IMG/VR virus record: IMGVR_UViG_3300013123_000162
Span: 1-25,354 of that record
DNA length: 25,354 nucleotides
DNA from: a virus
Reading direction: 5' to 3' (one strand)
Shown: piece by piece, positions 1 through 25,192 of the stretch
Layout of the letters: every line of letters begins with the position of its first letter
Numbering within the stretch: position 1 is the first letter of the stretch
Made by a program: the position numbers and the translations under genes
Notes under the pieces: model-generated
Seen by the model: the letters and a program-made list of their open reading frames with translations, nothing else
Databases searched by the model: none
Told to the model about the DNA's origin: nothing

Positions 1-123
1 AAATATCGAGTTTCATTAAATGAAGTTAAATATAAATTTAATGTTTTTCAGCAAAATTCAACATTAAAAAGCATGATTTAAATTATGATTAATTATTTAA
101 TTTATTGGATTTTGTATTTTATA
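1..123. repeat. 123-bp direct terminal repeat, left copy
   Basis: These 123 bases are identical, base for base, to the last 123 bases of the window. The repeat is non-coding. It contains a small hairpin (TTCAT 12-16 with ATGAA 20-24) and a perfect 9-bp stem (TTTAATGTT at 37-45 with AACATTAAA at 60-68, 14-nt loop). The simplest explanation is a circular assembly whose ends overlap. A true repeat flanking this module in a larger phage genome is the alternative. Confidence 0.97.
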
Positions 124-127
124 TAAA

Positions 128-164
128 TAAACTATGTTTAACTAAATATTCTGATATATTTATA
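128..164 (+). promoter_or_regulatory. Putative phage late promoter / conserved 37-nt upstream element, copy 1
   Basis: This stretch aligns without gaps to 549-585 (32 of 37 positions identical) and both copies sit just ahead of a gene. The last part, CTGATATATTTATA, is fully conserved and contains the TATATTTAT core that recurs upstream of several other genes here. It lies about 45 nt before the ATG at 210. The promoter role is inferred from repetition and position only. Confidence 0.45.
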
Positions 165-209
165 ATTAAAAATATTAAACATTTTCAACTTATCATATAA
201 GGAATAATT

Positions 210-539
210 ATGACACACACAATTCAAATAGAACCTAAATTAATATCAGTTTTTCCTATTGAAAAAACTGCAAGATTTTTATATATAAATAATATTGCAG
301 TAGCATTAATAGATAACGGAGTTAATATAATATATCAATTATTAGATATTAATCATTCTGTAATAACACAACAGGAATTTATTCAATTACCTAACGACTC
401 ATTAGTTACGTGGGTTAATTCAGATGAACAATTAGTTGATATTTTATTATCTAAATTAAATTTAGTAAAATCAAATGAACCTATAGAGCAAATTCCTAAT
501 GATATCCCTATTCCTCCTGTTATAAATCCAGTACCATAA
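210..539 (+). CDS. Hypothetical small phage protein
   Basis: A 109-residue protein, not recognised with certainty. The ATG at 210 follows a good ribosome binding site (AAGGA about 8 nt upstream). The body looks like a compact alpha/beta domain, and the last 20 or so residues are rich in proline and isoleucine (PIPPVINPVP at the end). The segment around residues 40-90, reading roughly YQLLD...SLVTWVNSDEQLVDILLSKLNL, resembles small domains often seen beside virion structural or fibre genes in large phages; this is an impression, not a family assignment. It has its own upstream element (128-164), separate from the glycan genes that follow. No signal peptide or membrane segment is visible. Confidence 0.75.
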   Translation: MTHTIQIEPKLISVFPIEKTARFLYINNIAVALIDNGVNIIYQLLDINHSVITQQEFIQLPNDSLVTWVNSDEQLVDILLSKLNLVKSNEPIEQIPNDIPIPPVINPVP

Positions 540-548
540 ATATTTATA

Positions 549-585
549 TAAACTGTATTTAACGAAATGCTCTGATATATTTATA
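549..585 (+). promoter_or_regulatory. Putative phage late promoter / conserved 37-nt upstream element, copy 2
   Basis: Second copy of the element at 128-164, differing at five positions, with an identical CTGATATATTTATA end. It lies about 32 nt before the ATG at 618 and probably drives the glycan island. Retention of this stretch in two otherwise unrelated intergenic regions argues for function. Confidence 0.45.
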
Positions 586-617
586 TTTGTAATTGTTATA
601 ACAAACCTTAAGGTTAC

Positions 618-3137
618 ATGAAAAAATTAGTGTATATCGCACCACACTTGTCTACTGGTGGTATGCCTCAGTATTTATATAAACAAATAGAAATGCTGAT
701 AAATGATTTTGATATTTACTGTATTGAGTGGTCCGATGTGACCGGAGGAGTATTAGTAATTCAAAAAGATAAGATTTATAATATTTTAAATAATAAATTA
801 ATTACTTTAAAAGAAAATAAAAAAGAATTATTTAATATTATAAATACATTATCTCCAGATATTATACATCTTCAAGAAATTCCTGAATTATTTATGGATC
901 ATTTAATTGCAGAACAATTATATTCTAAAAATAGAAAATATTCTATTATAGAAACTTCTCATGATTCATCTTTTAATATTGAAAATAAAATATATTTTCC
1001 AGATAAATTTATGATGGTTAGTCAATATCAAATTGATAGTTATAAATTATTAAATATTCCATGTGAACTTGTAGAATATCCTATCGAACATAAAATTAAA
1101 ACTAAAACTAGAGACCAAGCACTTAAAATATTAGGATTAGATCCTAAACTTAAACATATTATCAATATTGGTTTATTTACTCCTAGAAAAAATCAAGCTG
1201 AAATTATTGAATATGCTAAACAATTAAAAGATTATCCTATTCAATTTCATTTTATTGGTAATCATGCAGATAATTTCAAATATTATTGGGAACCATTAAT
1301 GAAAGATTTTCCATCAAATTGTAAATGGTGGAATGAAAGAAGTGATATAGATTCCTTTTTCGAAGCTGCAGATTTATTTTTATTTACATCTAGAGGTTCG
1401 AATTTAGATAAAGAAACAATGCCATTAGTAATTAGAGAAGCATTAGGATGGAATATTCCATCCTTAATATATAATTTACCAGTATATTTAAATTATTTTG
1501 ATAAATATAATAATATAGAATATTTAGATTTTAATAATTTGGATTTAAATATAAATAAAATTTTAAATAAGATTGATTTAACAACACATATAAATACTGA
1601 TACTTTAATATTAAATAAACGTAAAGTTCCGTTGTGTGATGACCATAATGGTGTAAATGTTTTATATGGACTTAAAGATTTAATTACAGAAAATTTTCCA
1701 AAGAATGCTTCAATTGTTGAAGTAGGTTGTTTTGAAGGTAAATCAATTGAATTATTTAGTATATTTTGTAAAAATGTATATGTAGTGGATCCATATTCAT
1801 CTTATAATGATATATCAGACGAATTATTATTAAATGCAAAATCACAGTTGGATGAAATAATTAAACAACATCCCAATATTATTAAATTAAAAAAACACAG
1901 TATTGACGTATCCTTAGATTTTGAAGATTATTCATTAGATGCTGTATATATTGATGGTGCTCATGATTATATTAATGTTAAAAATGATATATTAACTTGG
2001 ATTAAAAAAATTAAACCTAATGGAATTTTATGTGGTCATGATAGACATTCTGATGGTATAAACACTGCACTTAAAGAAATATTCAATGATAGTTTTATTG
2101 CTGAGTATTCTGACACATCATGGGCAATAAAAGTAAATACAAATTATATTCAATCTAATATATCTTCTAAGTGGAATTTAGAATCACAGACGATTTATTT
2201 TTCATCTAAAATAGATATTAATTTTCCAATACGAGTTGTTTTAAAAGAATATATGTCTAATGCAGTAATGTATGGACATGTATATAATAGTATACCAAAA
2301 AATATAGAATTTTGGATGATACCCGTCGATAAGAATATACATAAATATGAATTAGATCAAAATTTTTCAGGTGTTAAATTATGTATCTATAATATAGAAA
2401 CAGGTGATCAAATTTATGAACAACCCTACTATCACAGATTTACAAATGTACCTCAAATTGAATCATTAAGTAATGTTGCATTTTATTATAATAATTATTT
2501 AGAATATTTTGTCAATAAAAAATATGATAAATGGTTTAAAGGAAAATATTTTAAAAATGTAATTGATGTTGGTGCTAACATTGGTGTATTTACTAAATTT
2601 ATAATTTATAATAACATATCAGATAATATATTTTCAATTGAATGTTCTCCAACTGCATTAAATGATTTATATTATAATTTTAAAAATGAAAACAGAGTCA
2701 CTATAATTCCAAAGGCATTACATATTAGTAATGAACCTATAACATTTTATAATTCTGAAGAACATTCTATCATAAGTAGTACTATACCACCTGAAAAACT
2801 TACACAACACACGGCGGGAATTAAAGGTGAGTCTAAAATTACAGTAGATACAATTACACTAAAAGAACTAATTGATCAATACGGTACAATAGATTTATTA
2901 AAAATTGATATTGAAGGTGCAGAATATAATATATTTGATAGTATTGATGTTAATTTATTTGATAATATTAATAATATGTTTATTGAGTGTCATTATTTTG
3001 AAGATGATTATAAAGAAAAATACTTAAATCTTAAGAATATATTAATATGTGCAGGTTATATAGTACATAAATTTTCTACAAATCAAGATTTAGCTGGTCA
3101 GAGTGAATGTATATTTGTAACTAGGAGTACAAATTGA
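618..3137 (+). CDS. Fusion protein: GT4 glycosyltransferase - class I methyltransferase - FkbM methyltransferase
   Basis: An 839-residue three-domain enzyme. Residues 1 to about 310 form a GT-B glycosyltransferase of family 4 type: an STGGMPQYL loop near the N-terminus, the NIGLFTPRKNQ strand-loop that opens the donor domain, and an EX7E motif (E266, E274) followed by ALGWNIPSLIYNLP. Residues about 340-505 are a Methyltransf_24-like SAM domain (EVGCFEGKS from 368, then YIDGAHDY and NGILCGHD). Residues about 620-839 are an FkbM-type methyltransferase (DVGANIG at 650-656, KIDIEGAEY from 762). The likely role is transfer of a sugar plus O-methylation of the glycan; substrates are unknown. AAGG precedes the ATG. 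The stop overlaps the next start. The same methyltransferase and FkbM domains recur as separate genes downstream, in the same order. Confidence 0.9.
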   Translation: MKKLVYIAPHLSTGGMPQYLYKQIEMLINDFDIYCIEWSDVTGGVLVIQKDKIYNILNNKLITLKENKKELFNIINTLSPDIIHLQEIPELFMDHLIAEQLYSKNRKYSIIETSHDSSFNIENKIYFPDKFMMVSQYQIDSYKLLNIPCELVEYPIEHKIKTKTRDQALKILGLDPKLKHIINIGLFTPRKNQAEIIEYAKQLKDYPIQFHFIGNHADNFKYYWEPLMKDFPSNCKWWNERSDIDSFFEAADLFLFTSRGSNLDKETMPLVIREALGWNIPSLIYNLPVYLNYFDKYNNIEYLDFNNLDLNINKILNKIDLTTHINTDTLILNKRKVPLCDDHNGVNVLYGLKDLITENFPKNASIVEVGCFEGKSIELFSIFCKNVYVVDPYSSYNDISDELLLNAKSQLDEIIKQHPNIIKLKKHSIDVSLDFEDYSLDAVYIDGAHDYINVKNDILTWIKKIKPNGILCGHDRHSDGINTALKEIFNDSFIAEYSDTSWAIKVNTNYIQSNISSKWNLESQTIYFSSKIDINFPIRVVLKEYMSNAVMYGHVYNSIPKNIEFWMIPVDKNIHKYELDQNFSGVKLCIYNIETGDQIYEQPYYHRFTNVPQIESLSNVAFYYNNYLEYFVNKKYDKWFKGKYFKNVIDVGANIGVFTKFIIYNNISDNIFSIECSPTALNDLYYNFKNENRVTIIPKALHISNEPITFYNSEEHSIISSTIPPEKLTQHTAGIKGESKITVDTITLKELIDQYGTIDLLKIDIEGAEYNIFDSIDVNLFDNINNMFIECHYFEDDYKEKYLNLKNILICAGYIVHKFSTNQDLAGQSECIFVTRSTN

Positions 3138-3967
3138 TTTTGTTTTTATATAGTAATAAAGAATATGAACATCAGGCTATTGGATGTATTAAATCACTAA
3201 AATATAAATTAAATGATGATAATAAAATTGTATATTATACTATTGGATTTAAATCTTCATATAGTGCACCAAATGTTACATGTATACAATTAGGATTTAA
3301 AGATTATCCGAGGTATCACTTTTATAAATCCGAATTATCTTTACTTACAATGGAATTATTTCCAAATGAAACACATTTTATATTTTCAGATACAGATATT
3401 TTGTTTTCTAAAAAATTTAATTTTAATAAATTAAAACACGATTATACATACCCACTTGCAAGTTTCGGACCACATGAATATCCGTTTATTTATGAAATAA
3501 TTAATAATGAAACTATTATACATGATGAAACAAGACTCATGAATTATTTTAATGTTTCTAAAAGATCTATGCAATATACGTGGTCATGTATTTACGCATT
3601 TAATAGATCATGTAAAGATTTTTTAGAAGAATATACTTCAATGTGTCAAAACAAGTATTTATCAAGTAAAAATTTATATTATTATCCATTCGCAGATGAA
3701 ACTGCTTTTAATATATGTCTTTGGAAAAGAAATGCTACTCACAATTTAGGGTATGCGTTTTTGAATACACATAATCCTGAATCTGTTAAATTTGTAGAAG
3801 AACATAACTTAATTGACATTCATCTTGGAAAAAATATAGATGACTTGGGAGCAGATTGGGAATATGTTGGAGATTCATCAAATATTATATGTTATCATGG
3901 TTTTAAATTTGATTATGACATAAATCCAACATTAGAATATTTAATAGGTAATAATTATGAGAAGTAG
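3134..3967 (+). CDS. GT-A-fold glycosyltransferase (nucleotide-sugar transferase)
   Basis: A 277-residue protein with the layout of a GT-A glycosyltransferase. It begins with an ILFLYSN strand, has a DxD motif (D86-T87-D88 in FIFSDTDILF) for metal and nucleotide-sugar binding, and has a late YHGFKF segment like the histidine-containing end of GT8-type enzymes. The start is TTG at 3134. It overlaps the TGA of the previous gene and is preceded by AGGAG at 3123-3127, which supports this start over any internal ATG. The end overlaps the next gene by 11 nt. No membrane segment is seen, so it is probably cytosolic. The donor and acceptor cannot be read from the sequence. Confidence 0.82.
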   Translation: MILFLYSNKEYEHQAIGCIKSLKYKLNDDNKIVYYTIGFKSSYSAPNVTCIQLGFKDYPRYHFYKSELSLLTMELFPNETHFIFSDTDILFSKKFNFNKLKHDYTYPLASFGPHEYPFIYEIINNETIIHDETRLMNYFNVSKRSMQYTWSCIYAFNRSCKDFLEEYTSMCQNKYLSSKNLYYYPFADETAFNICLWKRNATHNLGYAFLNTHNPESVKFVEEHNLIDIHLGKNIDDLGADWEYVGDSSNIICYHGFKFDYDINPTLEYLIGNNYEK

Positions 3968-4586
3968 AATTGATTTTAGTAAATTATTATTAAGTAATAA
4001 TTTAACTGGATACGGAGTAGAATTGGGATCATTTGAAGGACAATTCGCAAAGAATATATTATCATCTTGGCCAGGTAATTTATATATGATAGATGTATGG
4101 AGAACATTACCGTCAGATGAATATGATGATATATCTAATCAATATGATTATTTGTCCGTTATAGATACTGCAATTAAAAATATACAACCATATGAAGATA
4201 GAGCACATATAATTAGAATGAAAGGTAAAGATGCTGTTAATTTATTTAACGATAATATGTTAGACTTCGTTTATATAGATGCAAATCATACTTATGAAGC
4301 TGTAATAGATGATATTAATATGTGGTATCCCAAAGTTAAATCAGGTGGTATAGTTTCCGGTCATGATTATTTACCATTACAATGCGATTATAATAAAGAA
4401 AATTATGATAAAAATATAAAAAATATTCCAATAAACATGTGGTCAAATAGTGATCCTACTAAAATTGAATATGTAGGAATGTTTGGAGTAAATCCTGCAG
4501 TTGAAGAATTTACTACTGAACATAATTATAAATTTAACGTAACTCCAGATGACTGGAATGGTACTTGGTGGTTTATAAAAAGATGA
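3957..4586 (+). CDS. Class I SAM-dependent methyltransferase (Methyltransf_24-like)
   Basis: A 209-residue single-domain methyltransferase. Motif I is VELGSFEGQF (residues 21-30), an acidic end of strand beta2 is seen in MIDVW, and the DFVYIDANHTYEAV...GGIVSGHDY segment (about 102-139) is typical of the family. The C-terminal region carries a PDDWNGTWWFIKR ending like that of stand-alone enzymes acting on sugars. It is a separate relative of the middle domain of the fusion protein at 618-3137 (EVGCFEG, YIDGAHDY, CGHD). It overlaps its upstream neighbour by 11 nt and its downstream neighbour by 4 nt, so translation is coupled. Probable role: O-methylation of a glycan intermediate. Confidence 0.85.
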   Translation: MRSRIDFSKLLLSNNLTGYGVELGSFEGQFAKNILSSWPGNLYMIDVWRTLPSDEYDDISNQYDYLSVIDTAIKNIQPYEDRAHIIRMKGKDAVNLFNDNMLDFVYIDANHTYEAVIDDINMWYPKVKSGGIVSGHDYLPLQCDYNKENYDKNIKNIPINMWSNSDPTKIEYVGMFGVNPAVEEFTTEHNYKFNVTPDDWNGTWWFIKR

Positions 4587-5494
4587 AATTGTGTAATGTT
4601 ATATTAAACAAATCTGAATTAAAAATAGATATAAATTATCTTTTAGATATAGATATAGATTTAAAAATCGTAATATCTGATTTAATATATGACTGTACAT
4701 ATTATATATTTAATACATCTTTTCAAAAAAATTCATCAATATGGGTAGTACCATTACCGTTAAATTTAAAAAATTCAATTTCTAATACTAATTTTAAAGG
4801 ATTTTATTGTAAAATATATAATACTAAATTAAGATTATTACAATCAGACGAATTAATTTTAAATGATAATACATTTAAATCTAAAAATTTTAGTAGTGAT
4901 CCACTTGATATGGTCGGTGAGTCGTATGTAGATTTTTTTTATAGTGATTTACTTAATAACATTGATACTAGTGGTGTAGTTATTGATGCAGGTGCAAACG
5001 TCGGATTTTTTACATTATATTGTTTACAAAATCTTAATTTATATAGAATATATAGTATTGAACCAGATGTGTTACCATTTTTTCATTTAAATAGAAACTT
5101 TATAAATGATTCTAGAGTTATTTTAATTAATAAAGCATTATCACATAATTGTGATGATATACAATTTTCATTTTCAGTTTGGAATTCGGTTGGTAGTAGT
5201 GAATTTAATCAAACCGATGGTGTATTTAGAACTAATGTTAGTTCAATAGACCTAAATACTATTTTAAATTTGGAATCTAAAATAAATTTATTAAAAATGG
5301 ATATAGAAGGAACGGAATTCAGAATATTTGAAAACTTGGATAATAGTGTATATGATAAAATAAATCAATTTTTTATTGAATTTCACGGTACACCATACAC
5401 TATATTTAACATATTACAATCACATGGTTATACAGTTGAATATAGGCATTCTAATGAAAACGATATTGCTGGATTTATATATGCATATAAATAA
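4583..5494 (+). CDS. FkbM family methyltransferase
   Basis: A 303-residue protein. The C-terminal two thirds is an FkbM SAM-dependent methyltransferase: VIDAGANVGFF around D135, SIEPDVLPFFHLNRN, and KMDIEGTEFRIF starting at residue 238. The first 110 or so residues look like a beta-rich accessory domain, comparable with the region just before the FkbM domain in the fusion at 618-3137. I chose ATG 4583, which overlaps the upstream TGA as ATGA, over the in-frame TTG at 4565 that would add six residues and lacks a better ribosome site. FkbM enzymes methylate sugar hydroxyls, which fits a methyl-capped glycan. The stop lies inside the next gene's start region. Confidence 0.86.
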   Translation: MKLCNVILNKSELKIDINYLLDIDIDLKIVISDLIYDCTYYIFNTSFQKNSSIWVVPLPLNLKNSISNTNFKGFYCKIYNTKLRLLQSDELILNDNTFKSKNFSSDPLDMVGESYVDFFYSDLLNNIDTSGVVIDAGANVGFFTLYCLQNLNLYRIYSIEPDVLPFFHLNRNFINDSRVILINKALSHNCDDIQFSFSVWNSVGSSEFNQTDGVFRTNVSSIDLNTILNLESKINLLKMDIEGTEFRIFENLDNSVYDKINQFFIEFHGTPYTIFNILQSHGYTVEYRHSNENDIAGFIYAYK

Positions 5495-6599
5495 TTATTT
5501 GGTAGTTTTTTCTTCTCATATAAATAACGATTCTAAAAAAGAATTTGCTATTGAAACATTAAAACATTTACAAGACAATAATATAGATGTTTGTATATCT
5601 ACCCATTGTAATAAATATTTAGAAGAATTATCATTATATGCTAAATATATAATATATGATTATAATAATGAACTAGTTGTTGTTAAAGATTTTTTAGATA
5701 ATATAGATTTAATAGATGATTCATGTAATATTAATGGTAGTGTAGATAATTTTTTTACGTTTGATTATTCAGGTGATTCACCAGTTGCATCAAGATTTAT
5801 ACCCGGACCAGAACATTCAAAACCTGCACTAATATTATTACGAAATGGAGTTCAAGTTGCACATTCAAATCAATATAAGTGGGTAATATATTTAGAATAT
5901 GATCTTCCAATTCCAATAGGTGGATATAAAAAATTTATAGAAGACAAAATATCAATATTAGAAAATAATAATAAAGAATGTTTTTATTATATATCAAATT
6001 TAACATACAATCAATATTTGTGGGGTGGATGTTTTATCTGTAAAACAAATAAATTATTTTCTAGTAAAAAGTTGATGTTAGATGAATGGAATACAAGCGT
6101 ACGTATGTGGATTAAATATTGGGGAATTACACCATTTGAATATTGTATACGAGCCAGTATTTATGAAGTATTAGATTATAGTGAAATTCATACTGAAATA
6201 TTCGCTGATACATATAAAGAATATTGGAATGTAGATAATTATTTAAATTTATCTAGATCTGATTTAAGTTTTCAACAATACTCAAATACTAATTTACATA
6301 TTTATCCTGTATTAAATAACAACCAGTATGATTTATATTTTTTAATGTTTAATTTTCACGTAGAAACTATAGTTAATAATGTACAAATTTTTATAAATAA
6401 TAATATTGTATATGATATTAAACAATATACTATTCCAGCATATGGTTGGTTAACACAAAAAATTGAATATAATTTAAATGATTTTATTGAATTAAAATAT
6501 AGTTTAAATCCTGAAGGTCAAATATACTCAGAATCATTCCATACAAATGATATAGAAAAAATTTATAAATATATGTTAAGAATCACAAATAATAAGTAG
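5481..6599 (+). CDS. Putative GT-A-like glycosyltransferase with C-terminal beta domain
   Basis: A 372-residue protein, probably a glycosyltransferase. The start YLVVFSSHINNDSKKEF and the CISTH segment suit the first strands of a GT-A fold, and WVIYLEYDLPI (E139, D141) sits where a DxD-like metal site is expected. FYYISNLTYNQYLWGGCFICKT resembles the acceptor-side region of phage and bacterial polysaccharide-linked GTs. The last 120 or so residues look like a beta-sandwich. ATG 5481 overlaps the upstream stop by 14 nt. Upstream in-frame starts (5454, 5376) would lengthen the overlap and add residues without family character. Family identity is less certain than for its neighbours; its position between methyltransferases and a sugar aminotransferase supports the call. 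Confidence 0.65.
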   Translation: MHINNYLVVFSSHINNDSKKEFAIETLKHLQDNNIDVCISTHCNKYLEELSLYAKYIIYDYNNELVVVKDFLDNIDLIDDSCNINGSVDNFFTFDYSGDSPVASRFIPGPEHSKPALILLRNGVQVAHSNQYKWVIYLEYDLPIPIGGYKKFIEDKISILENNNKECFYYISNLTYNQYLWGGCFICKTNKLFSSKKLMLDEWNTSVRMWIKYWGITPFEYCIRASIYEVLDYSEIHTEIFADTYKEYWNVDNYLNLSRSDLSFQQYSNTNLHIYPVLNNNQYDLYFLMFNFHVETIVNNVQIFINNNIVYDIKQYTIPAYGWLTQKIEYNLNDFIELKYSLNPEGQIYSESFHTNDIEKIYKYMLRITNNK

Positions 6600-6606
6600 G
6601 TTAATT

Positions 6607-7746
6607 ATGAAACAAATTCCATTATTTAAAGTTTATATGGATCCAAACGCTAAAATTGAAGTTGGAAAAGTATTAGATAGTGGTTATATAGGACAAGGCA
6701 AAAAGGTAGAAGAATTTGAAACAAATTTAAAAGAATATTTTAACGTAGATAAATTACTTACTCTCAATTCTGGTACTTCTGCATTACATTTGGCAATACA
6801 TTTATTAAAAAAACAAACAACAGACTGGCCAGGTTTATATCCTGGAGATGAAGTATTAACAACTGCACTTACTTGTACTGCGACTAATTGGCCAATACTC
6901 GCTAATGGTTTAGATATAAAATGGGTAGATATAGATGAAAAAAATCTAAATATCGATTTAGATGATTTAGAAAGAAAAATTACAAGTAAGACTAAAATTA
7001 TTATTGCAGTTCATTGGGGTGGATATCCTGTTGATTTGAAAAGATTGAAGAAAATACAACAACACGCATACGAATTGTATGGATTCAAGATTATGATTAT
7101 AGAAGATGGTGCACATTCATTTGGAACAGAATATGATGCTAAAAAATTAGGTAATGATGGCAACATTGTTATGTATAGTTTACAAGCTATTAAACATGTT
7201 ACTTCTATAGATGGTGGAATATTAATATTACCAACTCAAGAATTATATAATAGAGCTAAACTAATTAGATGGTATGGAATAGACAGAGAGCATAATTCTA
7301 AGGATTTTAGATGTGAGGCCGACGTAATAGAATGGGGATTTAAGTTTCATATGAATGATGTTAATGCTACAGTAGGTATAGAAAATTTAAAACACGCAGA
7401 TGAAATATTAAATATTCATAGAAATAATGCAAAGTTTTATGATATTCACATAAAACATCCTGATGTAACTTTACTAGAACGACAAGATTATAATAATTCA
7501 GCATTTTGGATTTATAGTATGAAAGTAAAAAATAGATTTATGTTCTATACTAGAATGAAAGAATGTGGTATAATGGTTTCGCAAGTTCATGAACGAAATG
7601 ACAAACACACAGCAGTTAAACAATATAAAACATTTTTACCGACACTAGATAGAGTTTTACCAGAAGTTGTATCTATACCAGTTGGTTGGTGGGTAACTAA
7701 TGATGATAGACAATATATTGTAGATTGTATTAATGGAGGTTGGTAA
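6607..7746 (+). CDS. DegT/DnrJ/EryC1/StrS family sugar aminotransferase (PLP-dependent)
   Basis: A full-length 379-residue PLP aminotransferase of the DegT/StrS family, which converts a keto-sugar nucleotide to an amino sugar (for example perosamine-type or 4-amino-4,6-dideoxy sugars). It opens with IPLFKVYM and SGYIGQGKKVEEFE. TLNSGTSALHLAIH binds the PLP phosphate, IEDGAHSFG holds the ring-binding Asp (D167), and SLQAIKHVTSIDGG holds the Schiff-base lysine (K196). The family usually has SxQxxK at this spot, and it is intact here. The downstream GNAT gene overlaps by one base, the usual partner for N-acylating the new amine. No 4,6-dehydratase is encoded in the window, so the keto-sugar must come from the host or from genes outside. 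Confidence 0.93.
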   Translation: MKQIPLFKVYMDPNAKIEVGKVLDSGYIGQGKKVEEFETNLKEYFNVDKLLTLNSGTSALHLAIHLLKKQTTDWPGLYPGDEVLTTALTCTATNWPILANGLDIKWVDIDEKNLNIDLDDLERKITSKTKIIIAVHWGGYPVDLKRLKKIQQHAYELYGFKIMIIEDGAHSFGTEYDAKKLGNDGNIVMYSLQAIKHVTSIDGGILILPTQELYNRAKLIRWYGIDREHNSKDFRCEADVIEWGFKFHMNDVNATVGIENLKHADEILNIHRNNAKFYDIHIKHPDVTLLERQDYNNSAFWIYSMKVKNRFMFYTRMKECGIMVSQVHERNDKHTAVKQYKTFLPTLDRVLPEVVSIPVGWWVTNDDRQYIVDCINGGW

Positions 7747-8327
7747 TGTATAAACATAAAAATGGAATTACTTTAGTTAAATTGGAAAGAGAAGATCTTC
7801 CAATATTAAAAAGATTAAAAAATGAATCTTGGTTTGGTACTCATACTATTAATTTTGTAAATGATGATGATCAAACACGTTGGTTTAACTCATTAGATAA
7901 TAATAAATCTTTAATATTAATTGTAATACATACTATCACTAACCAAAAAATAGGATTGTATAAAATACAAAATATAGATTGGATTAATAGAAAATATGAT
8001 TCTGCACATGATATTTTTGAAAATTTTAGAGGTAAAGGATTATCTAAAATATTATTAGAAGCGGGAGTAGATTTTGGATTTGAAATATTGAATATGAATC
8101 GAATAGACACTGAGGTTTTAGAAAATAATATAGCAAGTTATAAATCAGCAATACACGTGGGTTTTATTCAAGAAGGTATTAAAAGAAAATGTATTCATAA
8201 ATGTGGTCAATATTTAAATAGTAATGTATTGGGTATATTAAGAGAAGATTGGATGCAATTACCCAGAGTTATAAAATATGGTAAAATTTGTAATATTTCA
8301 TATATACCCAAGAATGGTATAATGTGA
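7746..8327 (+). CDS. GNAT family N-acetyltransferase (RimJ/RimL-like), probable sugar N-acyltransferase
   Basis: A 193-residue GNAT enzyme. The acetyl-CoA pyrophosphate loop is FRGKGLSKIL (R95-G96-K97-G98), and the C-terminal half has TEVLENNIASYKSAIHVGFIQEGIKRK, the standard end of RimJ/RimL-type acetyltransferases. ATG 7746 shares a base with the upstream TAA, and GGAGG lies six bases before it, so I preferred it to the TTG at 7740. Its place directly after the sugar aminotransferase points to N-acetylation (or another acylation) of the amino sugar. A ribosomal-protein acetylase role cannot be excluded from sequence alone but is unlikely in this context. Confidence 0.87.
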   Translation: MYKHKNGITLVKLEREDLPILKRLKNESWFGTHTINFVNDDDQTRWFNSLDNNKSLILIVIHTITNQKIGLYKIQNIDWINRKYDSAHDIFENFRGKGLSKILLEAGVDFGFEILNMNRIDTEVLENNIASYKSAIHVGFIQEGIKRKCIHKCGQYLNSNVLGILREDWMQLPRVIKYGKICNISYIPKNGIM

Positions 8328-10417
8328 AAATAATTAATATAACTCCAGGTTTAATATCAATACCACCTAATGGATGGGGTGCAATTGAAAAGATTATATG
8401 GGAAATACATATAAATCTATTAAAGTTAGGTCACGATTCTCAAATAAAATACTTAGATGAAGTAACACCAGATGATAAAATAGTTCATATACATGTTGCT
8501 AATTTAGCTAATTTGGCATACGAACGAGGTATACCTTATTATTTTACAATGCACGATCATCATTCATATCTTTATGGAAAAGAGTCTGAATTATATAAAG
8601 AAAATTTATTAGCAATTAAACATGCAAAACATGCTTTTGTTCCGGCTAAATATTTAGTAGATTATTTTGAAGGAATTCCAACTTACTTTTCACATGGGGT
8701 TAACACTGAATATTTTATACCTAATCACTATACAGATGAACAACATAGATTATTATGTGTAGCTAATAATGGCTTTATACATGATGCGTCTGAAGACCGT
8801 AAAGGATTCGGTTATGCAATTGATATAGCAAAAAAATTAAATTTACCTATTACAATTGCTGGACCATCTAATAATAAAAAGTATTTTGAAAAATATCCGT
8901 CTACATATAAAGGTCTTACAATTTTATATGACTTAACCGAAGATCAATTAAAAGAATTATATCAAACACACTCTATATTTTTACACTTTTCTATGTTAGA
9001 AGCAGGTCACCCCAATTTAACAATATTAGAAGCTATGGCATCTGGACTTCCTGTAATAGGAACATTTGAAGAAAATAACAGTTTAGCTGGAATGAAAATC
9101 ATTAACAGAGAAATTAATGATGACACATTAAAGATCATATACGATGTGGTATTACATCACAGTAAATATAAATTAGATGCAGTTTTTACTGCTAATATTT
9201 TATCATGGAAAAATAGAACATTAGAATTAATTAAATTTTATAAGGATGAACCTAAAGTGAAAGAACAATTAATAAACAGTTATAATAATATACATCCACT
9301 TTATATTGAACCAAAGCATTTTACAGCATCATTAAATATAAATAATATAGATGGAGCATATGCCGATGTTTTAGGTGAAGATGGTAAAGATTATATTGTA
9401 GATTTTATAGATAAGAAAACTAATAAAACTGAGTATTCATGTATATTAAAAAACGGTAACTGGGGTAAAGTATCTAAGAAATATTTTGTTAATTGGAAAA
9501 TAATACTAAAAGATTCAAATGGTAGTATAATAAAAGAATATGATTTAGATTTTTCAAATAAAAAAGTTTATATTGCTCTTGAGTCTAAGTCACTTGGTGA
9601 TACACTGGCTTGGATTCCGTATGTAGAAGAGTTTAGAAAAAAACACAAATGCCAAATCATATGCTCTACATTTTGGAATAATCTATTTATAAAAACATAT
9701 TCAGATATAGAATTTATTGAACCTGGAAAAGTTGCAAATAATATAGTTGCAATGTACTGTGTTGGTATATTTTATAATTCATCAAATTTGATAGATCTGT
9801 TTAAACATCCAGTTGATCCTATAAGTCGTCCGTTACAACAAACCTGTTCTGATATTCTAGGTTTAGATTATAAAGAAATTCGTCCTTTAATAAACTTGCG
9901 TGATAATATAGAAAAAGAAAAAATTGTTACAATCGCAATTCATAGTACATCACAAGCAAAATACTGGAATAACACTACAGGTTGGCAAAAAGTAGTTGAT
10001 TATTTGAAATCACGTGGTTATAAAGTTATATTATTATCTACTGAAGAAAATGGTTATATGGGAAACATGAATCCTAAAGGAGTAGATTATCATCCTAAGG
10101 GTAAAATTGAATATGTAATTAACCTATTACAAAAGTCAACAATGTTTATAGGTGTAAGCAGTGGTTTAAGTTGGTTGGCATGGGCGTGTAATACAAAAAC
10201 TTGTATGATTTCAGGTTTTACAGAACCATTTAATGAATTTATTTGTACTAGAATATATCCAGAGATTGATATTTGTTCAGGTTGTTATAACAGATTTATA
10301 TTTGATAAAGGTGATTGGAATTGGTGTCCTGTTCATAAACATACATATAGACAATTTGAATGTACAAAAACAATTACTGGAGAAGATGTAATTAGTAAAA
10401 TTAAACAATATCTTTGA
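8324..10417 (+). CDS. Fusion protein: GT4 glycosyltransferase - autotransporter heptosyltransferase (BAHT, TibC/Aah-like) domain
   Basis: A 697-residue two-domain enzyme. Residues 1 to about 300 are a GT-B glycosyltransferase (ITPGLISIPPNGWGAIEKI at the N-terminus; EAGHPNLTILEAMASGLP from E226). A small beta-rich linker follows. Residues about 414-697 match bacterial autotransporter heptosyltransferases, relatives of GT9: SLGDTLAWIPYVEEF, CSTFWN, SDILGLDYKEIRP, STSQAKYWN...GWQKVVDYL, GVSSGLSWLAWA and MISGFTEPF. The C-terminus holds four cysteines (C651, C654, C668, C680) around DKGDWNWCP and FECTKTI, the pattern that binds iron in TibC-type enzymes. Known members attach heptose from ADP-heptose to serines of autotransporter beta-helices. 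Start is GTG 8324, overlapping the previous stop (GTGA). Target in the phage is unknown. Confidence 0.9.
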   Translation: MKIINITPGLISIPPNGWGAIEKIIWEIHINLLKLGHDSQIKYLDEVTPDDKIVHIHVANLANLAYERGIPYYFTMHDHHSYLYGKESELYKENLLAIKHAKHAFVPAKYLVDYFEGIPTYFSHGVNTEYFIPNHYTDEQHRLLCVANNGFIHDASEDRKGFGYAIDIAKKLNLPITIAGPSNNKKYFEKYPSTYKGLTILYDLTEDQLKELYQTHSIFLHFSMLEAGHPNLTILEAMASGLPVIGTFEENNSLAGMKIINREINDDTLKIIYDVVLHHSKYKLDAVFTANILSWKNRTLELIKFYKDEPKVKEQLINSYNNIHPLYIEPKHFTASLNINNIDGAYADVLGEDGKDYIVDFIDKKTNKTEYSCILKNGNWGKVSKKYFVNWKIILKDSNGSIIKEYDLDFSNKKVYIALESKSLGDTLAWIPYVEEFRKKHKCQIICSTFWNNLFIKTYSDIEFIEPGKVANNIVAMYCVGIFYNSSNLIDLFKHPVDPISRPLQQTCSDILGLDYKEIRPLINLRDNIEKEKIVTIAIHSTSQAKYWNNTTGWQKVVDYLKSRGYKVILLSTEENGYMGNMNPKGVDYHPKGKIEYVINLLQKSTMFIGVSSGLSWLAWACNTKTCMISGFTEPFNEFICTRIYPEIDICSGCYNRFIFDKGDWNWCPVHKHTYRQFECTKTITGEDVISKIKQYL

Positions 10418-10936: not shown

Positions 10937-13237
10937 ATGGCAGAAAAAATGGTTAGCCCTGGCGTATTTACGCGAGAAAATGACCAATCATATTTAGCAT
11001 CAGGTATAAGTGCAATAGGTGCAGCAGTTATCGGTACTACTGAATCTGGTCCAGCTTTTGTTCCAACCCCAGTATCATCATTTGCGGAATTTGAAGCTTT
11101 ATTTGGATCAACAAGTGATTCAACATATGTTCCATATGTTGTAAAATCATATTTACAAAATGCAGGAATTATAAATGTAGTAAGAGTACTTGGCACAGAA
11201 GGTTGGCTAAACAGTAATACACGTATTAATGGTCAAAATAATTTAGTTAAACTTGTTGTAAATGGAAAAACTGCAGTTGCTTTAGGTGTTACTGCAGGTT
11301 CTACTAATTTTTCTGTTTCAGGTTTAACGGTTACTGGGAATGGTAATAACTTTACACTTAATTCAGCATCAGTATATGTATCATGTTCACTTGATAAATC
11401 TAATCCTAATTATATTGTAAAAGTATTCGGAACAGATCCTTTAAATAATAGTGGAAATACACTGTCTTCGAATTTATATATATATTCAATGAATATTGAA
11501 GCAGCAACTCCTTACACATCATCAACTGTATCAGTAACTAGTTCACAAGCATTAACATTTCTTACAAACTCGGATTATTCAGCAGCAAGTACCCCTTGGA
11601 TCCAATCACAATTGGTAGCAGGTGAAGCATATAATTTATTTAGATTCTGGACTTTAAGTGATGGTACAAACGCTAACATGAAATATAAAGTTGAGATTAG
11701 TAATATCACAAAACCAGTAGATGATACACAATATGGTGTATTTACAGTTGTTGTTAGAGAATATTCTGATTTAGACTTTAGACAAAGTGTCGTAGAAACA
11801 TATTCAAATTGTAACTTAGATCCAACTAGTAAAAATTATATCTTAAAGAAAATTGGTGATAAATATAAAACTATAGATTCTGAAGGTAGAATAAATGTTT
11901 ATGGTACCTATGATTCAAAATCTAAATATATCAGAGTTGAAGCAGCTTCTACTTTAGAAAAATTAGCAAATACAATTGTTCCGTTTGGTCATGGTCAATA
12001 TTATAACCCAATTACAGGTAGTGCAGACACATTTTTTGATATACCATTTAAGACATATCAAGGAACAGCTGATATTTATCAATCGTATGTTCCATGGGGT
12101 ATTGATTTTACAAACTTAGATCATAAAGCATTTTTGACACCAATTGCAGATAATGTTACTTATAGTACAAACTCTTCATTGAATTTAGATAATATTATGG
12201 GTCATGCAAGTTCATCTTATACATCATCACTATCAAGTTCGGCCGCACCAACAGAAATGTTACATTTCATCGTAGGTTTCCAAGGTGGTTGGGACGGTTT
12301 ACCACCTAATAGAGTTAAGAATATTGGTACTAATATTTCTGCAAGTAATGTATTTGGACATGATTGTAGTGGTGCTATGACAGAAGGTACATTAGCACTT
12401 AAAAAAGCAATAAATGCAATCTCTAATCCAGATGAACTTGATATTAACTTGATTGTAATTCCAGGTATATTAGAATCATTACATCCTTATGTAACAGATT
12501 ATGCACGTACACTATGTCGAAATAGAGGTGATTGTTTTTATATTATGGATTCAGTTCAATTTACTGGAACAAAAGAAGATATAGTAAGTGCAATAGCTTC
12601 TATTGACAACAACTATGTTGGTACTTATTTTCCATGGGTACAAATTGATGATAATGTTAGAGGCAAACGTGTTTGGGTACCACCTAGTGTAATAATCCCA
12701 GCTGTATACTCATTCAATGATAAAGTAAGTGCTCCTTGGTGGGCTCCTGCTGGACTTAATCGTGGTGGATTAACAGAAGTAATTGAAGTTAAACGTAGAT
12801 TAAATCAATCCGATAGAAACTATCTTTATGAAAACAGAGTAAACCCAATTGCAGTATTTCCTGGAACTGGTCCAGCTGTATGGGGACAAAAAACTCTTCA
12901 AAAGAAAGCTTCTGCTCTTGATAGAATCAATGTAAGAAGACTTCTTTTAGAAATAGAGAAGTTCATTGCTTCAACTTCAAGATTCTTGGTATTTGAACCT
13001 AATGTAGCGAATACAAGAATTCAATTTTTATCTATTGTAAATCCGTATTTAACCGATGTACAAAAAAGAAGTGGTGTTTATGCATTTAAAGTAGTAATGG
13101 ATGAAAGTAATAATGATGCTGACGCACTTGATAGAAATATTTTACGTGGAGCAATTTATATTCAACCTACTAAAGCCGCGGAATTTATTGAATTAACTTA
13201 TAATATTACCCCAACCAACTCTACGTTCTCTTCTTAA
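10937..13237 (+). CDS. gp18: Tail sheath protein (T4 gp18-like)
   Basis: A 766-residue contractile tail sheath subunit. The N-terminus VSPGVFTREND and the following ISAIGAAVIGTTESGPAFVPTPVSSFAEFEALFG are hallmark sheath features. The C-terminal third (about 540-766), with NYVGTYFPWVQIDD...KRVWVPPSVIIPAVYS, WWAPAGLNRGG, NPIAVFPGTGPAVWGQKTL and RINVRRLLLEIEKFI, is the conserved core that packs around the tube. It is longer than T4 gp18 (about 660 residues); the excess probably lies in the variable Ser/Thr-rich outer domains at residues 110-400. Those surface domains are plausible targets for the glycan genes upstream (inference). A strong AGGAG site precedes the ATG and a rho-independent terminator follows the stop. 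Confidence 0.97.
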   Translation: MAEKMVSPGVFTRENDQSYLASGISAIGAAVIGTTESGPAFVPTPVSSFAEFEALFGSTSDSTYVPYVVKSYLQNAGIINVVRVLGTEGWLNSNTRINGQNNLVKLVVNGKTAVALGVTAGSTNFSVSGLTVTGNGNNFTLNSASVYVSCSLDKSNPNYIVKVFGTDPLNNSGNTLSSNLYIYSMNIEAATPYTSSTVSVTSSQALTFLTNSDYSAASTPWIQSQLVAGEAYNLFRFWTLSDGTNANMKYKVEISNITKPVDDTQYGVFTVVVREYSDLDFRQSVVETYSNCNLDPTSKNYILKKIGDKYKTIDSEGRINVYGTYDSKSKYIRVEAASTLEKLANTIVPFGHGQYYNPITGSADTFFDIPFKTYQGTADIYQSYVPWGIDFTNLDHKAFLTPIADNVTYSTNSSLNLDNIMGHASSSYTSSLSSSAAPTEMLHFIVGFQGGWDGLPPNRVKNIGTNISASNVFGHDCSGAMTEGTLALKKAINAISNPDELDINLIVIPGILESLHPYVTDYARTLCRNRGDCFYIMDSVQFTGTKEDIVSAIASIDNNYVGTYFPWVQIDDNVRGKRVWVPPSVIIPAVYSFNDKVSAPWWAPAGLNRGGLTEVIEVKRRLNQSDRNYLYENRVNPIAVFPGTGPAVWGQKTLQKKASALDRINVRRLLLEIEKFIASTSRFLVFEPNVANTRIQFLSIVNPYLTDVQKRSGVYAFKVVMDESNNDADALDRNILRGAIYIQPTKAAEFIELTYNITPTNSTFSS

Positions 13238-13791: not shown

Positions 13792-14298
13792 ATGGCAACA
13801 TTATTAGAAAATTCAGAAATGCTTTTTCAAAATTATGAACCAAAGACTCAATTTAGATTTAAATTCAGTTTTGGAGGTTCTGCTACATCGGCTATTCCAG
13901 CATGGTTAGTAAAAAGTTCTAAAAGACCATCTATTACTTTCAGTCCTATTACAATAGATCATATTAACTCTAAAAGAAAACTTTTGGGTAAAGGTGAATG
14001 GGAAGATATTGATGTTGTATTTTATGATCCAATTACTCCAAGTGGAGCACAAGCTGTAATAACTTGGATGAGACAAGGATATGAATCATTTACCGGTAGA
14101 GCCGGTTATGCTTCATTTTACAAAAGAGACATAACGCTTCAGATGTTAGGTCCAATCGGTGATGTTGTAGAAGAATGGTCATTAATTGGTGCATTCATTA
14201 GTAAATGTGATTGGGGTTCGTTGGATTATACATCAAACGATGCCTTATCAGAAATATCTGCAACAATTACCTATGATTATGCTATTTTGAATTACTAA
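13792..14298 (+). CDS. gp19: Tail tube protein (T4 gp19-like)
   Basis: A 168-residue inner tail tube subunit, close in length to T4 gp19 (163 residues). Diagnostic segments are the FRFKFSFGG strand, WLVKSSKRPSITFSPITIDHINSKRKLLGKGEWEDIDVVFYDPI, and VEEWSLIGAFISKCDWGSLDYTSNDALSEISATITYDYAILNY, which form the two beta-sheets and the conserved C-terminal strand of tube proteins. It hexamerises into the DNA or effector channel inside the sheath. The ATG is preceded by TTTTTAGGAG. A hairpin follows the stop. Confidence 0.97.
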   Translation: MATLLENSEMLFQNYEPKTQFRFKFSFGGSATSAIPAWLVKSSKRPSITFSPITIDHINSKRKLLGKGEWEDIDVVFYDPITPSGAQAVITWMRQGYESFTGRAGYASFYKRDITLQMLGPIGDVVEEWSLIGAFISKCDWGSLDYTSNDALSEISATITYDYAILNY

Positions 14299-14314
14299 TT
14301 TCTCTAGAATTAAT

Positions 14315-14340
14315 GGAGACTCCTTTATAGGAGTCTTCTC
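14315..14340 (+). terminator. Hairpin after the tube gene, probable weak terminator
   Basis: AGACTCCT (14317-14324) pairs with AGGAGTCT (14329-14336) around a TTAT loop, and the stem can be extended by a G-T and a G-C pair. It is 18 nt after the tube stop. The following bases (TCTCCTATAAATT) lack a clear U tract, so this may serve to stabilise the 3' end of the mRNA or to attenuate transcription rather than terminate fully. Confidence 0.6.
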
Positions 14341-14393
14341 CTATAAATTATAAAAGTTTTAATAAATAGTTTCATATATAAGAAAGGTCACTC

Positions 14394-15200
14394 ATGTTAA
14401 ATCAAACAACAACAAACACAAACGAGTTACACGATGAGAAATATCCTTATGAAATAATAGAATTACCGAGTGGTGGTGTTTTTTATTCTAAAGATAATTC
14501 TCTGTCAAGTGGTCTCATTAAATTAAAACTTCCTACCGCAAAACATGAAGATATATTAACATCTAAAAACCTAATTACAAAAGGTATAGTTATAGATGAA
14601 TTATTAAAATCATTAATATTAGATAAAATTAATTATGACGATCTTTTATTAGGTGATATTAATGGGTTAATCATTTCAACTAGAATTTTGTTATATGGTT
14701 CAGATTATAATACTCAAATTCATTGCCCATCGTGTGATAAGTTAAATCAGATTAAAATTAATTTGTCATCTTTAAAAGTTAAAGAATTTCCAAGTATAGA
14801 TGAGAATCTAAAAGGTATAAACGAACATGATTTTGTGTTACCATTTAGTAAAATACCTATTAAATTTAAATTTTTAACACATAAAGATGAACAAGAAATT
14901 AATTTGTACCTTAAGAAAATGAAAAAACACATCGGTGGGATTGATCCTGAAATAACAACTCGGTTAGGTTTTGCTATTATTGAAATTAATGGTGAAACGG
15001 ATAAGACAAAAATACAGCATTATGTGTCAGACCAAATGACTACTAAAGATACAAAGGCATTTAGAGAACATTTAAATGCAGTATCACCAGGCGTTGATAC
15101 TGAAATTTTATTTGAATGTGATTCGTGTGGTCATGAAGATACTTTGACTATGCCTATGAATGTTGACTTTTTTTGGCCTAGCGGAAAACTACAGAAGTAG
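14394..15200 (+). CDS. gp26: Baseplate hub assembly protein (T4 gp26-like) with split zinc-ribbon cysteines
   Basis: A 268-residue protein of the T4 baseplate gp26 family. The N-terminus EIIELPSGGVFYSKD...LIKLKLPTAKHEDILTSKNLITKGIVIDELLKSLI is the family signature. Two Cys pairs, C111-P-S-C114 and C242-D-S-C245, are far apart in sequence and probably form one zinc ribbon. The C-terminus MPMNVDFFWPSG is typical of the family. T4 gp26 is required for central hub assembly. The gene comes right after the tube and two genes before the tape measure, the position held by tail assembly chaperones in other myoviruses, and its end overlaps a +1-frame ORF at a run of seven T. AAAGG precedes the ATG. Confidence 0.85.
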   Translation: MLNQTTTNTNELHDEKYPYEIIELPSGGVFYSKDNSLSSGLIKLKLPTAKHEDILTSKNLITKGIVIDELLKSLILDKINYDDLLLGDINGLIISTRILLYGSDYNTQIHCPSCDKLNQIKINLSSLKVKEFPSIDENLKGINEHDFVLPFSKIPIKFKFLTHKDEQEINLYLKKMKKHIGGIDPEITTRLGFAIIEINGETDKTKIQHYVSDQMTTKDTKAFREHLNAVSPGVDTEILFECDSCGHEDTLTMPMNVDFFWPSGKLQK

Positions 15201-23839: not shown

Positions 23840-25192
23840 TTGATTATTATAGAAAATAAAGCGCTTTTAAAAGAAATTTGTCTAAAGATTCATATGGGTG
23901 ATTCTATAATTATTCCTGTGTTTACTGACCATAAACAAAATCATCATATAAATAAACCTTTATTTTTATATATTTATCTTATTAAATTTAAAACTGGGTA
24001 TATAATTCCAATTAATACTGAAGATTGTATTAATATAGAAAATCTAGATTTATTTGACCTTTTTACTAATATATTAAATAATATAACAACTAAATATGTA
24101 ATTAATCTAGATCATCTATATTATTTTAGACCTTCTTTAGATGATAGATTTGTTGACTTAAGAGTGTTAGAATATATATCGACCGGTAAAGTATCTACTC
24201 ATTATAATAGATTATTACCTACTCAAAGTTTTATGTATCATCTACATTATAACATGAATGATGTTAATATATCTATTCCGATTACTAAACACATTGAATA
24301 TTTAGAAATGGAAACAGAAAATATATTAAATGTTATTAAATTATATTCAGAAAATGAATTTGAATTAAGTCTTAAAATGTTTAATAATATAATGCTTCCA
24401 ACTCTAAATACCATAACCCAGGCAGGTATACCAGTTGATACTGAATTTCCAGTTAAAGAAAATATTAAGAATAATTGTATTTATACAACCTATAATCCTT
24501 TTAATCTGACTAGTCGACCAACGTGTAGTTCTGGAAAATTCAGTTTTAGTTCAATAGCAAAGGACTCTCAAGATAGAAAGCACATTATTTCTAGATTCGG
24601 AGAAGATGGAACTTTGGTCTTATTTGATTATAATTCATATCATATATCATTGATATGTGAAATTATAAATTATAAATTTAATGAATACGCGTATACTCAA
24701 TTAGGTAAAATATATTTTGGCAAAGAAGAATTAACTCATGACGAAATAACAGATGCTAAAATCTTAACATTTAGAGTTTTATATGGTGGTATACCAACTG
24801 AATTCTTACAAATAGAATTTTTTAAAAGAGTAGATAAATTTATAAAAGAATTGTGGTCAGCATATAATTCAGATGGGTGTATATATACTAGATTATTTAA
24901 GCGAAGATATAATAGGAAAAACTATCCTGATATGAATGCTCAAAAATTATTTAATTATTATCTTCAATCATTTGAAACTGAAAATAATATGATGATACTA
25001 AATAAAATAAATACATATTTACAACAATATTCAACTAAAGTTATCCTATACATATATGATTCTATATTAATTGACTTCAAATTTGAAGATGGAAAAGATG
25101 TCATTAATCAAATACTGAATATTTTTAAAAATGATAAGTATGATGTAAGTATTTTTATGGGAAATAATTATTTAGATTTAGTCAAAATTTAA
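23840..25192 (+). CDS. Divergent family A DNA polymerase, exonuclease site absent
   Basis: A 450-residue protein with a pol I-type polymerase domain. Motif A is LVLFDYNSYHISLICEI (catalytic D263). Motif B has K307, F311 and Y315 in AKILTFRVLYGG, spaced as K758/F762/Y766 in Klenow, but the Arg at -4 is Ile303. GCIYTRLFKRRYNR and NYYLQSFETENN follow, and motif C is YIYDSILIDF (D407; the usual VHDE is YDSI). The first 200 residues retain the outline of the 3'-5' exonuclease fold (GYIIPINTEDC, VINLDHLYYF, VDLRVLEYI) but lack its DxE active site. Start is TTG 23840: an in-frame TAG immediately precedes it and AAAGG lies 8 nt upstream. Far shorter than bacterial Pol I (about 930 residues). Role in replication or repair is open. 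Confidence 0.82.
   Translation: MIIIENKALLKEICLKIHMGDSIIIPVFTDHKQNHHINKPLFLYIYLIKFKTGYIIPINTEDCINIENLDLFDLFTNILNNITTKYVINLDHLYYFRPSLDDRFVDLRVLEYISTGKVSTHYNRLLPTQSFMYHLHYNMNDVNISIPITKHIEYLEMETENILNVIKLYSENEFELSLKMFNNIMLPTLNTITQAGIPVDTEFPVKENIKNNCIYTTYNPFNLTSRPTCSSGKFSFSSIAKDSQDRKHIISRFGEDGTLVLFDYNSYHISLICEIINYKFNEYAYTQLGKIYFGKEELTHDEITDAKILTFRVLYGGIPTEFLQIEFFKRVDKFIKELWSAYNSDGCIYTRLFKRRYNRKNYPDMNAQKLFNYYLQSFETENNMMILNKINTYLQQYSTKVILYIYDSILIDFKFEDGKDVINQILNIFKNDKYDVSIFMGNNYLDLVKI

Follow-up and report, generated by a model that had tools for sequence, protein, structure and literature searches.

Descriptions of the TibC/Aah glycosyltransferases (BAHT family) place them in bacterial virulence and link them to autotransporters. 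Here, we analyzed a relative encoded by a virus, the 697-amino-acid (aa) product of the gene at positions 8324 to 10417 of IMG/VR virus record IMGVR_UViG_3300013123_000162, a fragment of 25,354 bases that is referred to below as the window. The window enzyme shares with TibC/Aah the fold, the family model score, the catalytic Asp, the equivalents of TibC K230, T226, and W305, the four Cys, and a small N-terminal beta domain, and by alignment it has a hydrophobic residue pair where TibC has its thumb tip. It differs in being phage-encoded, in belonging to a separate clade, in having Val in place of Arg286, and in its fusion to a GT4 domain; in addition, no autotransporter or strand-loop-strand repeat was found with it, and its acceptor is likely different. 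No description of phage BAHTs was found in a literature search that covered few subscription papers.

Other known systems resemble parts of what we propose. The bacterial collagen-like protein BclA is glycosylated and located on the spore surface; BclA-like proteins share with the phage fibers considered below the Gly-X-Y repeats, a multivalent scaffold for glycans, but differ by their spore location and by the enzymes involved. In mycobacteriophages, the capsid and tail tube are reported to be glycosylated (Freeman et al. 2023, cited in PMC12619734). Virion glycans are also what we propose here, the difference being a TibC-type enzyme and, as the putative acceptor, collagen-like fibers. The phage collagen-like proteins EPclA and EPclB, when produced recombinantly in E. 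coli, were unglycosylated (PMC3368898). Finally, a viral HldE-type kinase and nucleotidyltransferase have been reported as functional, with the phosphatase absent (Tang et al., Science 2024, via PMC11461863 and PMC11573728), and the purpose of viral nucleoside diphosphate (NDP)-heptose enzymes is called unsolved in these two articles. An HldE-like pair occurs at some loci of related phage BAHTs, where it neighbors a protein glycosyltransferase.

Our leading interpretation, to which we give about an even chance, is that the gene encodes a two-headed phage glycosyltransferase whose BAHT domain glycosylates a protein of the phage's own virion, the best candidate being a serine-rich collagen-like tail fiber, and whose GT4 domain extends the glycan. 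The C-terminal BAHT domain would move a sugar, most likely D-glycero-manno-heptose, from a nucleotide sugar onto serines of the virion protein, and the candidate fiber (G-T/S-S repeats, often with an S74 end) would be encoded beyond the 25-kb fragment. The N-terminal GT4 domain would then add a second sugar, presumably in that order, and the neighboring methyltransferases, DegT aminotransferase, and GNAT acetyltransferase may decorate the glycan. Such a modification could serve fiber stability, receptor binding, or shielding.

The NCBIfam model TIGR04414 (hepto_Aah_TibC, autotransporter strand-loop-strand O-heptosyltransferase) matched residues 356-695 of the product with 280.3 bits (E 2e-83), above its curated cut-off of 200 bits. 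TibC (PDB 4rap/4rb4), the sole solved relative by sequence, matched residues 347-691 in a phmmer search (E 1e-56) and was the top PDB match of the predicted model in Foldseek (E 7e-30; template modeling [TM] score of 0.79, normalized by TibC length), followed by GT4-type enzymes. Pfam matches to the 697-aa product were GT4 at residues ~158-247 and GT9 at residues 528-635. The GT4 half scored above the Pfam gathering thresholds for PF13692 (31.5 bits; threshold 27) and PF00534 (28.2 bits; threshold 26.4), and its predicted model resembled the GT4 enzymes SenB, BshA, and MshA in Foldseek. E226 and E236, which we take to be the two active-site glutamates of GT4 enzymes, were invariant in an alignment of 19 fused phage orthologues. 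The AlphaFold model of the full-length protein, based on an alignment of the window sequence and 19 phage orthologues, had a mean predicted local distance difference test (pLDDT) score of 83 and a predicted TM score of 0.53, with linker residues 322-332 below a pLDDT of 50, as expected for two domains whose relative placement is uncertain.

An earlier note, made from the sequence alone, had proposed a BAHT-family domain fused to an N-terminal GT4 (GT-B) domain. The profile search, the comparison with the TibC fold, and the Pfam scores bear out both halves of that proposal, and the positions that it gave for the four cysteines were exact; only its start of the BAHT domain, at residue ~414, was too late, since the domain begins earlier, with the beta-rich part at residues ~336-407.

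The cassette in which the gene lies could, alternatively, alter host surface glycans (lipopolysaccharide [LPS], O-antigen, or capsule), for example excluding other phages. This would suit the sugar-modifying genes that the cassette holds, and heptose is typically an LPS sugar. It is also the usual interpretation of phage glycosyltransferase clusters (PMC7824862, PMC7029224). We nevertheless consider it improbable, because the domain falls in the protein-serine branch (TibC/Aah), with 280 bits versus 34 bits for the LPS heptosyltransferase I model TIGR02193 (WaaC type; below the curated cut-off of 185), because the iron finger is retained, and because of the linkage to fiber genes described below.

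Residues of the TibC active site were located in the window enzyme by alignment (Table 1). Among phage relatives, the equivalents of the catalytic Asp (D110) and of K230 were each present in 123/123 sequences and that of T226 in 121/123, and the equivalent of the heptose-contacting W305 was invariant. Position S612 matches the AAH residue and not that of TibC, and F678 aligns with TibC F368. C651, C654, C668, and C680 align with TibC C339, C342, C358, and C370, respectively, and are predicted from this alignment to coordinate iron; all 123 phage and 46 bacterial relatives with an alignable finger keep the four residues, a count that excludes five bacterial-genome loci without a locatable finger. 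We infer that the enzyme works like TibC, as an O-glycosyltransferase for a repetitive surface protein, with a specificity for serine that is assumed by analogy to TibC.

The thumb hairpin of the window enzyme is shorter than that of TibC, and the hydrophobic pair at its tip is common to most phage enzymes; the hairpin was deleted in 32 of the 97 dereplicated phage enzymes. One phage sub-clade of 29 rows (e.g., L006, L041, and L079; L numbers denote individual loci) is without the beta-hairpin thumb that the TibC dodecamer ring needs, and these enzymes may have a different oligomeric state.

Scans of IMG/VR recovered 167 relatives with the BAHT domain and at least 588 confirmed viral relatives with the alignment, whereas the alignment scan of 84,980 prokaryote genomes (one per species) gave 76 loci; the copies seen in viral contigs hence outnumber those from ~85,000 prokaryote species, each represented by a single genome, but the viral set is redundant and the scan patterns differed, so that this is no comparison of rates. 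The earlier note had treated the enzyme as a lone oddity; the phage family to which it belongs is in fact large and includes many fusion architectures. Phage copies stand alone (~385 aa) or are fused with GT4, other glycosyltransferases, or methyltransferases, and the GT4-BAHT architecture recurs, the closest examples (L168-L170) being ~55-57% identical over the BAHT half and 66-67% over the GT4 half. A tree with a midpoint root was built from 136 rows by a quick method. In it, 34 bacterial rows formed one clade (Shimodaira-Hasegawa-like approximate likelihood ratio test [SH-aLRT] support of 99), and the other clade (SH-aLRT 99) held 98 phage rows and four bacterial-bin contigs. We assign the window enzyme to a phage sister subfamily and not to the typical BAHTs, because it passes the family model but has neither R286 nor an autotransporter partner. 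Phage-like BAHTs were also seen on contigs from bins labeled bacterial or archaeal (L092, L093, L094, and L102; also L095 and L157). None of the five such bins tested contained a strand-loop-strand repeat, L157 had a collagen-like array rich in serine and threonine (S/T), and these contigs are probably mis-binned phage DNA.

The characterized BAHTs TibC and AAH act on autotransporters (PMC4358343), and modification of a host autotransporter or another host adhesin, blocking superinfection, had been offered as an alternative in the earlier note. We find this very unlikely. The phage clade is separate from the bacterial BAHTs, and no autotransporter gene is nearby, an absence that the earlier note had already remarked; searches of the window, a fragment, with family libraries gave no autotransporter or strand-loop-strand protein. 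The model of the strand-loop-strand target repeat, TIGR04415, matched none of the 48 enzyme-bearing phage records over its cut-off (one sub-threshold match), whereas 33 of 45 bacterial BAHT-bearing genomes, a positive control, had matches over the cut-off, the five phage-like bins mentioned above being among those without. An autotransporter-like acceptor in the phages was therefore dropped.

A different kind of repeat protein was found near phage BAHTs. These long proteins contain 28-50% Ser+Thr, are built from Gly-Thr/Ser-Ser triplets, and carry Pfam Collagen repeats. The Peptidase_S74 chaperone is typical of phage fibers, and a Peptidase_S74 end was present in the proteins of L205, L169, and L173, as well as in the L183 frame past its array. 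In counts that derive from uncultivated, partial, and partly redundant contigs, with the sheath as one lineage-based control and statistics that ignore kinship, 35 of the 97 dereplicated phage BAHT loci had an S/T collagen array within ~10 kb, versus 1/80 loci surrounding genes related to the tail sheath of the window (Fisher P 6e-10, with unequal flank lengths) and none of the 33 loci of the bacterial clade. When only loci of 17 kb or more were counted, without dereplication, the array was present in 29/65 versus 1/28 sheath records (P 6e-5). In the reverse direction, 20 of 50 viral records selected solely for ten G-S/T-S/T triplets had a BAHT over the cut-off, versus 1 of 28 sheath-relative records (P 4e-4). 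The association was present in several distinct BAHT sub-clades, and at nine loci the array gene was immediately downstream of the BAHT gene on the same strand. In L183, the cassette is mostly syntenic with that of the window, the same sheath, tube, and baseplate genes come after it, and a collagen-S74 fiber lies directly upstream. The earlier note had named the phage's own adhesins, in the form of beta-helical fibers or tailspikes, as a possible target. The association lends indirect support to the idea of an adhesin of the phage itself, but relatives point to serine-rich collagen-like fibers and not to beta-helical ones.

Among collagen-like arrays collected without selecting for serine, Ser made up 75% of the Y positions in BAHT loci versus 15% in sheath controls. 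This contrast was not used to show that the enzyme exerts selection, since repeat-selected contigs with and without BAHT had the same composition.

Several results weigh against our leading interpretation. The window contains no S/T collagen array and no heptose genes within its 25 kb, although the cassette begins 617 bases from the left edge of the record, so that the fiber genes of this phage may lie outside it. The huge phage LR756504 bears a BAHT and no array. Within ten records, the proximity of array and enzyme was modestly above random (combined P 0.013), and the association may thus partly reflect shared phage lineages and shared fiber-gene regions. In the stand-alone BAHT clade beside HldA/HldC, an S/T collagen array was nearby in 0/27 loci, which makes collagen an improbable acceptor in that clade, and the acceptor probably differs across the family. 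The model has low confidence across iron-finger residues 651-680 (pLDDT ~51-57). No gmhA was found among the 48 phage records. Finally, 120/123 phage enzymes have V/T/I/L/A at the R286 position, and the donor may hence not be ADP-heptose.

The stand-alone loci and the modest proximity statistics would be accounted for if another virion protein (an S/T-rich fiber, neck, baseplate, or sheath protein) were modified and the collagen link were a by-product of fiber modules in the same large aquatic phages. Other S/T-rich repeat proteins do adjoin BAHT genes, such as that of L003 with FATSASFATT repeats. A conserved protein of ~2,000 aa, encoded three to four genes upstream of the stand-alone BAHT (L186, 723-6959, and relatives; 18 loci), is a candidate acceptor in such loci. 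For the window enzyme, we judge this explanation rather unlikely, given that selection on the repeat alone still retrieved BAHTs in two-fifths of the contigs and that the collagen association spans several separate sub-clades.

The loss at R286 bears on the donor. This residue contacts adenine and is reported to be highly conserved across BAHTs (PMC4358343); it is R in 44/46 bacterial versus 3/123 phage relatives, and the window enzyme keeps the other three of the four donor-site residues (the T226, K230, and W305 equivalents). Stand-alone BAHT genes are usually followed directly by genes for a nucleotidyltransferase and a kinase. Both fall below equivalog cut-offs, the nucleotidyltransferase being closest to HldE domain II (102 bits, versus 63 for TagD) and the kinase to HldE domain I (104 bits). 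An SPEAPVPV-like motif is present in the kinase, whose top PDB match is a heptose-7-phosphate kinase. An HldA/HldC-like pair also follows the fused BAHT in L237, L238, and L244, and in L049 it is 1.3 kb from the BAHT on the opposite strand; such genes thus adjoin BAHT in two sub-clades and lie near it in a third locus. In nearly all phage HldC-like nucleotidyltransferases (L179, L186, L216, L230, and others), K/R opens an eight-residue motif ending in STT; an STTR5 motif (CTP/UTP promiscuity) was considered for these enzymes and rejected, as position 5 is not Arg.

It is possible, if doubtful, that the donor is a non-heptose nucleotide sugar, the fold having been kept while specificity drifted, a reading compatible with a fiber acceptor. 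The replacement of R286, the top PDB matches of the nucleotidyltransferases (TagD/Ect cytidylyltransferases), and the K/R that opens their STT motif all speak for it. The better fit to HldE-II than to TagD, the fit of the kinase to heptose-7-phosphate kinase, and the invariant W305 equivalent speak for heptose. The loss of R286 was indecisive as proof of a non-heptose donor, as enzymes beside HldA/HldC lack the Arg too. Manno-heptose is our best guess for the transferred sugar, and a heptose donor is plausible for the window enzyme.

Collagen-like arrays and BAHT fusions also occur together in isolated and complete phage genomes. Microcystis phage Mel-JY01, which along with Flavobacterium phage immuto is the isolate closest to the window by sheath and tube (44% and 54%, respectively, for Mel-JY01), carries a BAHT fusion (WWT39291.1, 4750-8430) and a plus-strand collagen-like open reading frame (ORF; 2-3052) with 149 consecutive G-X-Y triplets and 56% Ser+Thr. 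In its record, PP395634.1 (L082), the annotated minus-strand coding sequence WWT39287.1 (739-2298) is antisense to this ORF, and that gene call is probably wrong. The 735-kb phage LR756501 encodes a GT4-BAHT homologue that is full-length (41%), and of its very many arrays some lie within ~5 kb; from ~103.5 kb of LR756501.1, more than 1,200 overlapping S/T collagen pattern matches occur on one strand. No array was found in seven complete phage genomes that encode related sheaths and gave no BAHT match.

We tentatively extend the fiber interpretation to many large aquatic phages, which may hyper-heptosylate serine-rich collagen-like tail fibers via a phage-specific TibC-type enzyme with an acceptor of its own (G-X-S collagen, not autotransporter repeats), some lineages with phage heptose-activating enzymes and possibly a non-ADP nucleotide. 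The phage enzymes group in a clade of their own, and their genomic partner differs from that of the bacterial ones. Should the fibers be glycosylated, viral heptose enzymes would gain a concrete role, and phages may have a new route to adjust the stability, receptor binding, or recognition of their adhesins. As Mel-JY01 is an isolated phage with both genes, the hypothesis is directly testable.

The tail sheath, tail tube, and baseplate hub genes downstream of the cassette indicate that the window derives from a contractile-tailed phage, in line with the phage origin assumed earlier (Table 1). A megablast search of the window against 50,697 phage records gave no DNA-level match. The first 4 nucleotides of the fusion gene are also the last 4 of the GNAT gene before it, and the true start of the ORF at 5376-6599 is probably later than listed, because it overlaps the preceding gene.

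Table 1. Coordinates of features in the window
Feature	Position	Strand	Basis or remark
GT4 + methyltransferase-24 + FkbM methyltransferase fusion, 839 aa	618-3137	+	First gene of glycan cassette
277-aa protein	3134-3967	+	No family match; homologues in related cassettes (cluster c37, 6 loci)
Methyltransferase	3957-4586	+	PF13578
FkbM methyltransferase	4565-5494	+	
Cassette protein without identification	5376-6599	+	Listed as 407 aa
DegT/DnrJ sugar aminotransferase (PseC-like)	6607-7746	+	
GNAT acetyltransferase (weak PseH-like)	7740-8327	+	
GT4-BAHT fusion gene, 697 aa	8324-10417	+	Single intact ORF, GTG start
N-terminal GT4 domain (GT-B, retaining type), residues 1-320	8324-9283	+	Pfam PF13692/PF00534, ortholog alignment, Foldseek
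Small beta-rich N-terminal part of BAHT domain, residues 336-407 (TibC beta-barrel equivalent)	9329-9544	+	Predicted strands; TibC match from residue 347
BAHT (TibC/Aah-type) glycosyltransferase domain, residues 356-695	9389-10408	+	NCBIfam TIGR04414
D426 (TibC catalytic base D110)	9599-9601	+	Alignment to TibC
T542 + K546 (TibC T226 + K230, donor beta-phosphate)	9947-9961	+	Alignment to TibC
Y578-M579, hydrophobic pair (position of TibC thumb tip F265-V266)	10055-10060	+	Alignment
V598 (at TibC R286, adenine contact; not conserved)	10115-10117	+	Alignment
S612 (at TibC P300 / AAH S294, heptose stereoselectivity)	10157-10159	+	Alignment; site from PMC4358343
W617 (TibC W305, heptose O4)	10172-10174	+	Alignment
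Iron-finger segment with C651, C654, C668, C680	10274-10363	+	Alignment
Tail sheath protein	10937-13237	+	Context
Tail tube (13792-14298) and baseplate hub (14394-15200)	13792-15200	+	Context

Left of the cassette, a 109-aa ORF at 210-539 had no feature pointing to a fiber. At the other end of the window, the only match of a 450-aa ORF (23840-25192) was to a DNA polymerase PHROG and was weak (E 2.5e-4). The 277-aa cassette protein contains an SDTD stretch that, by eye, is a possible glycosyltransferase metal site.

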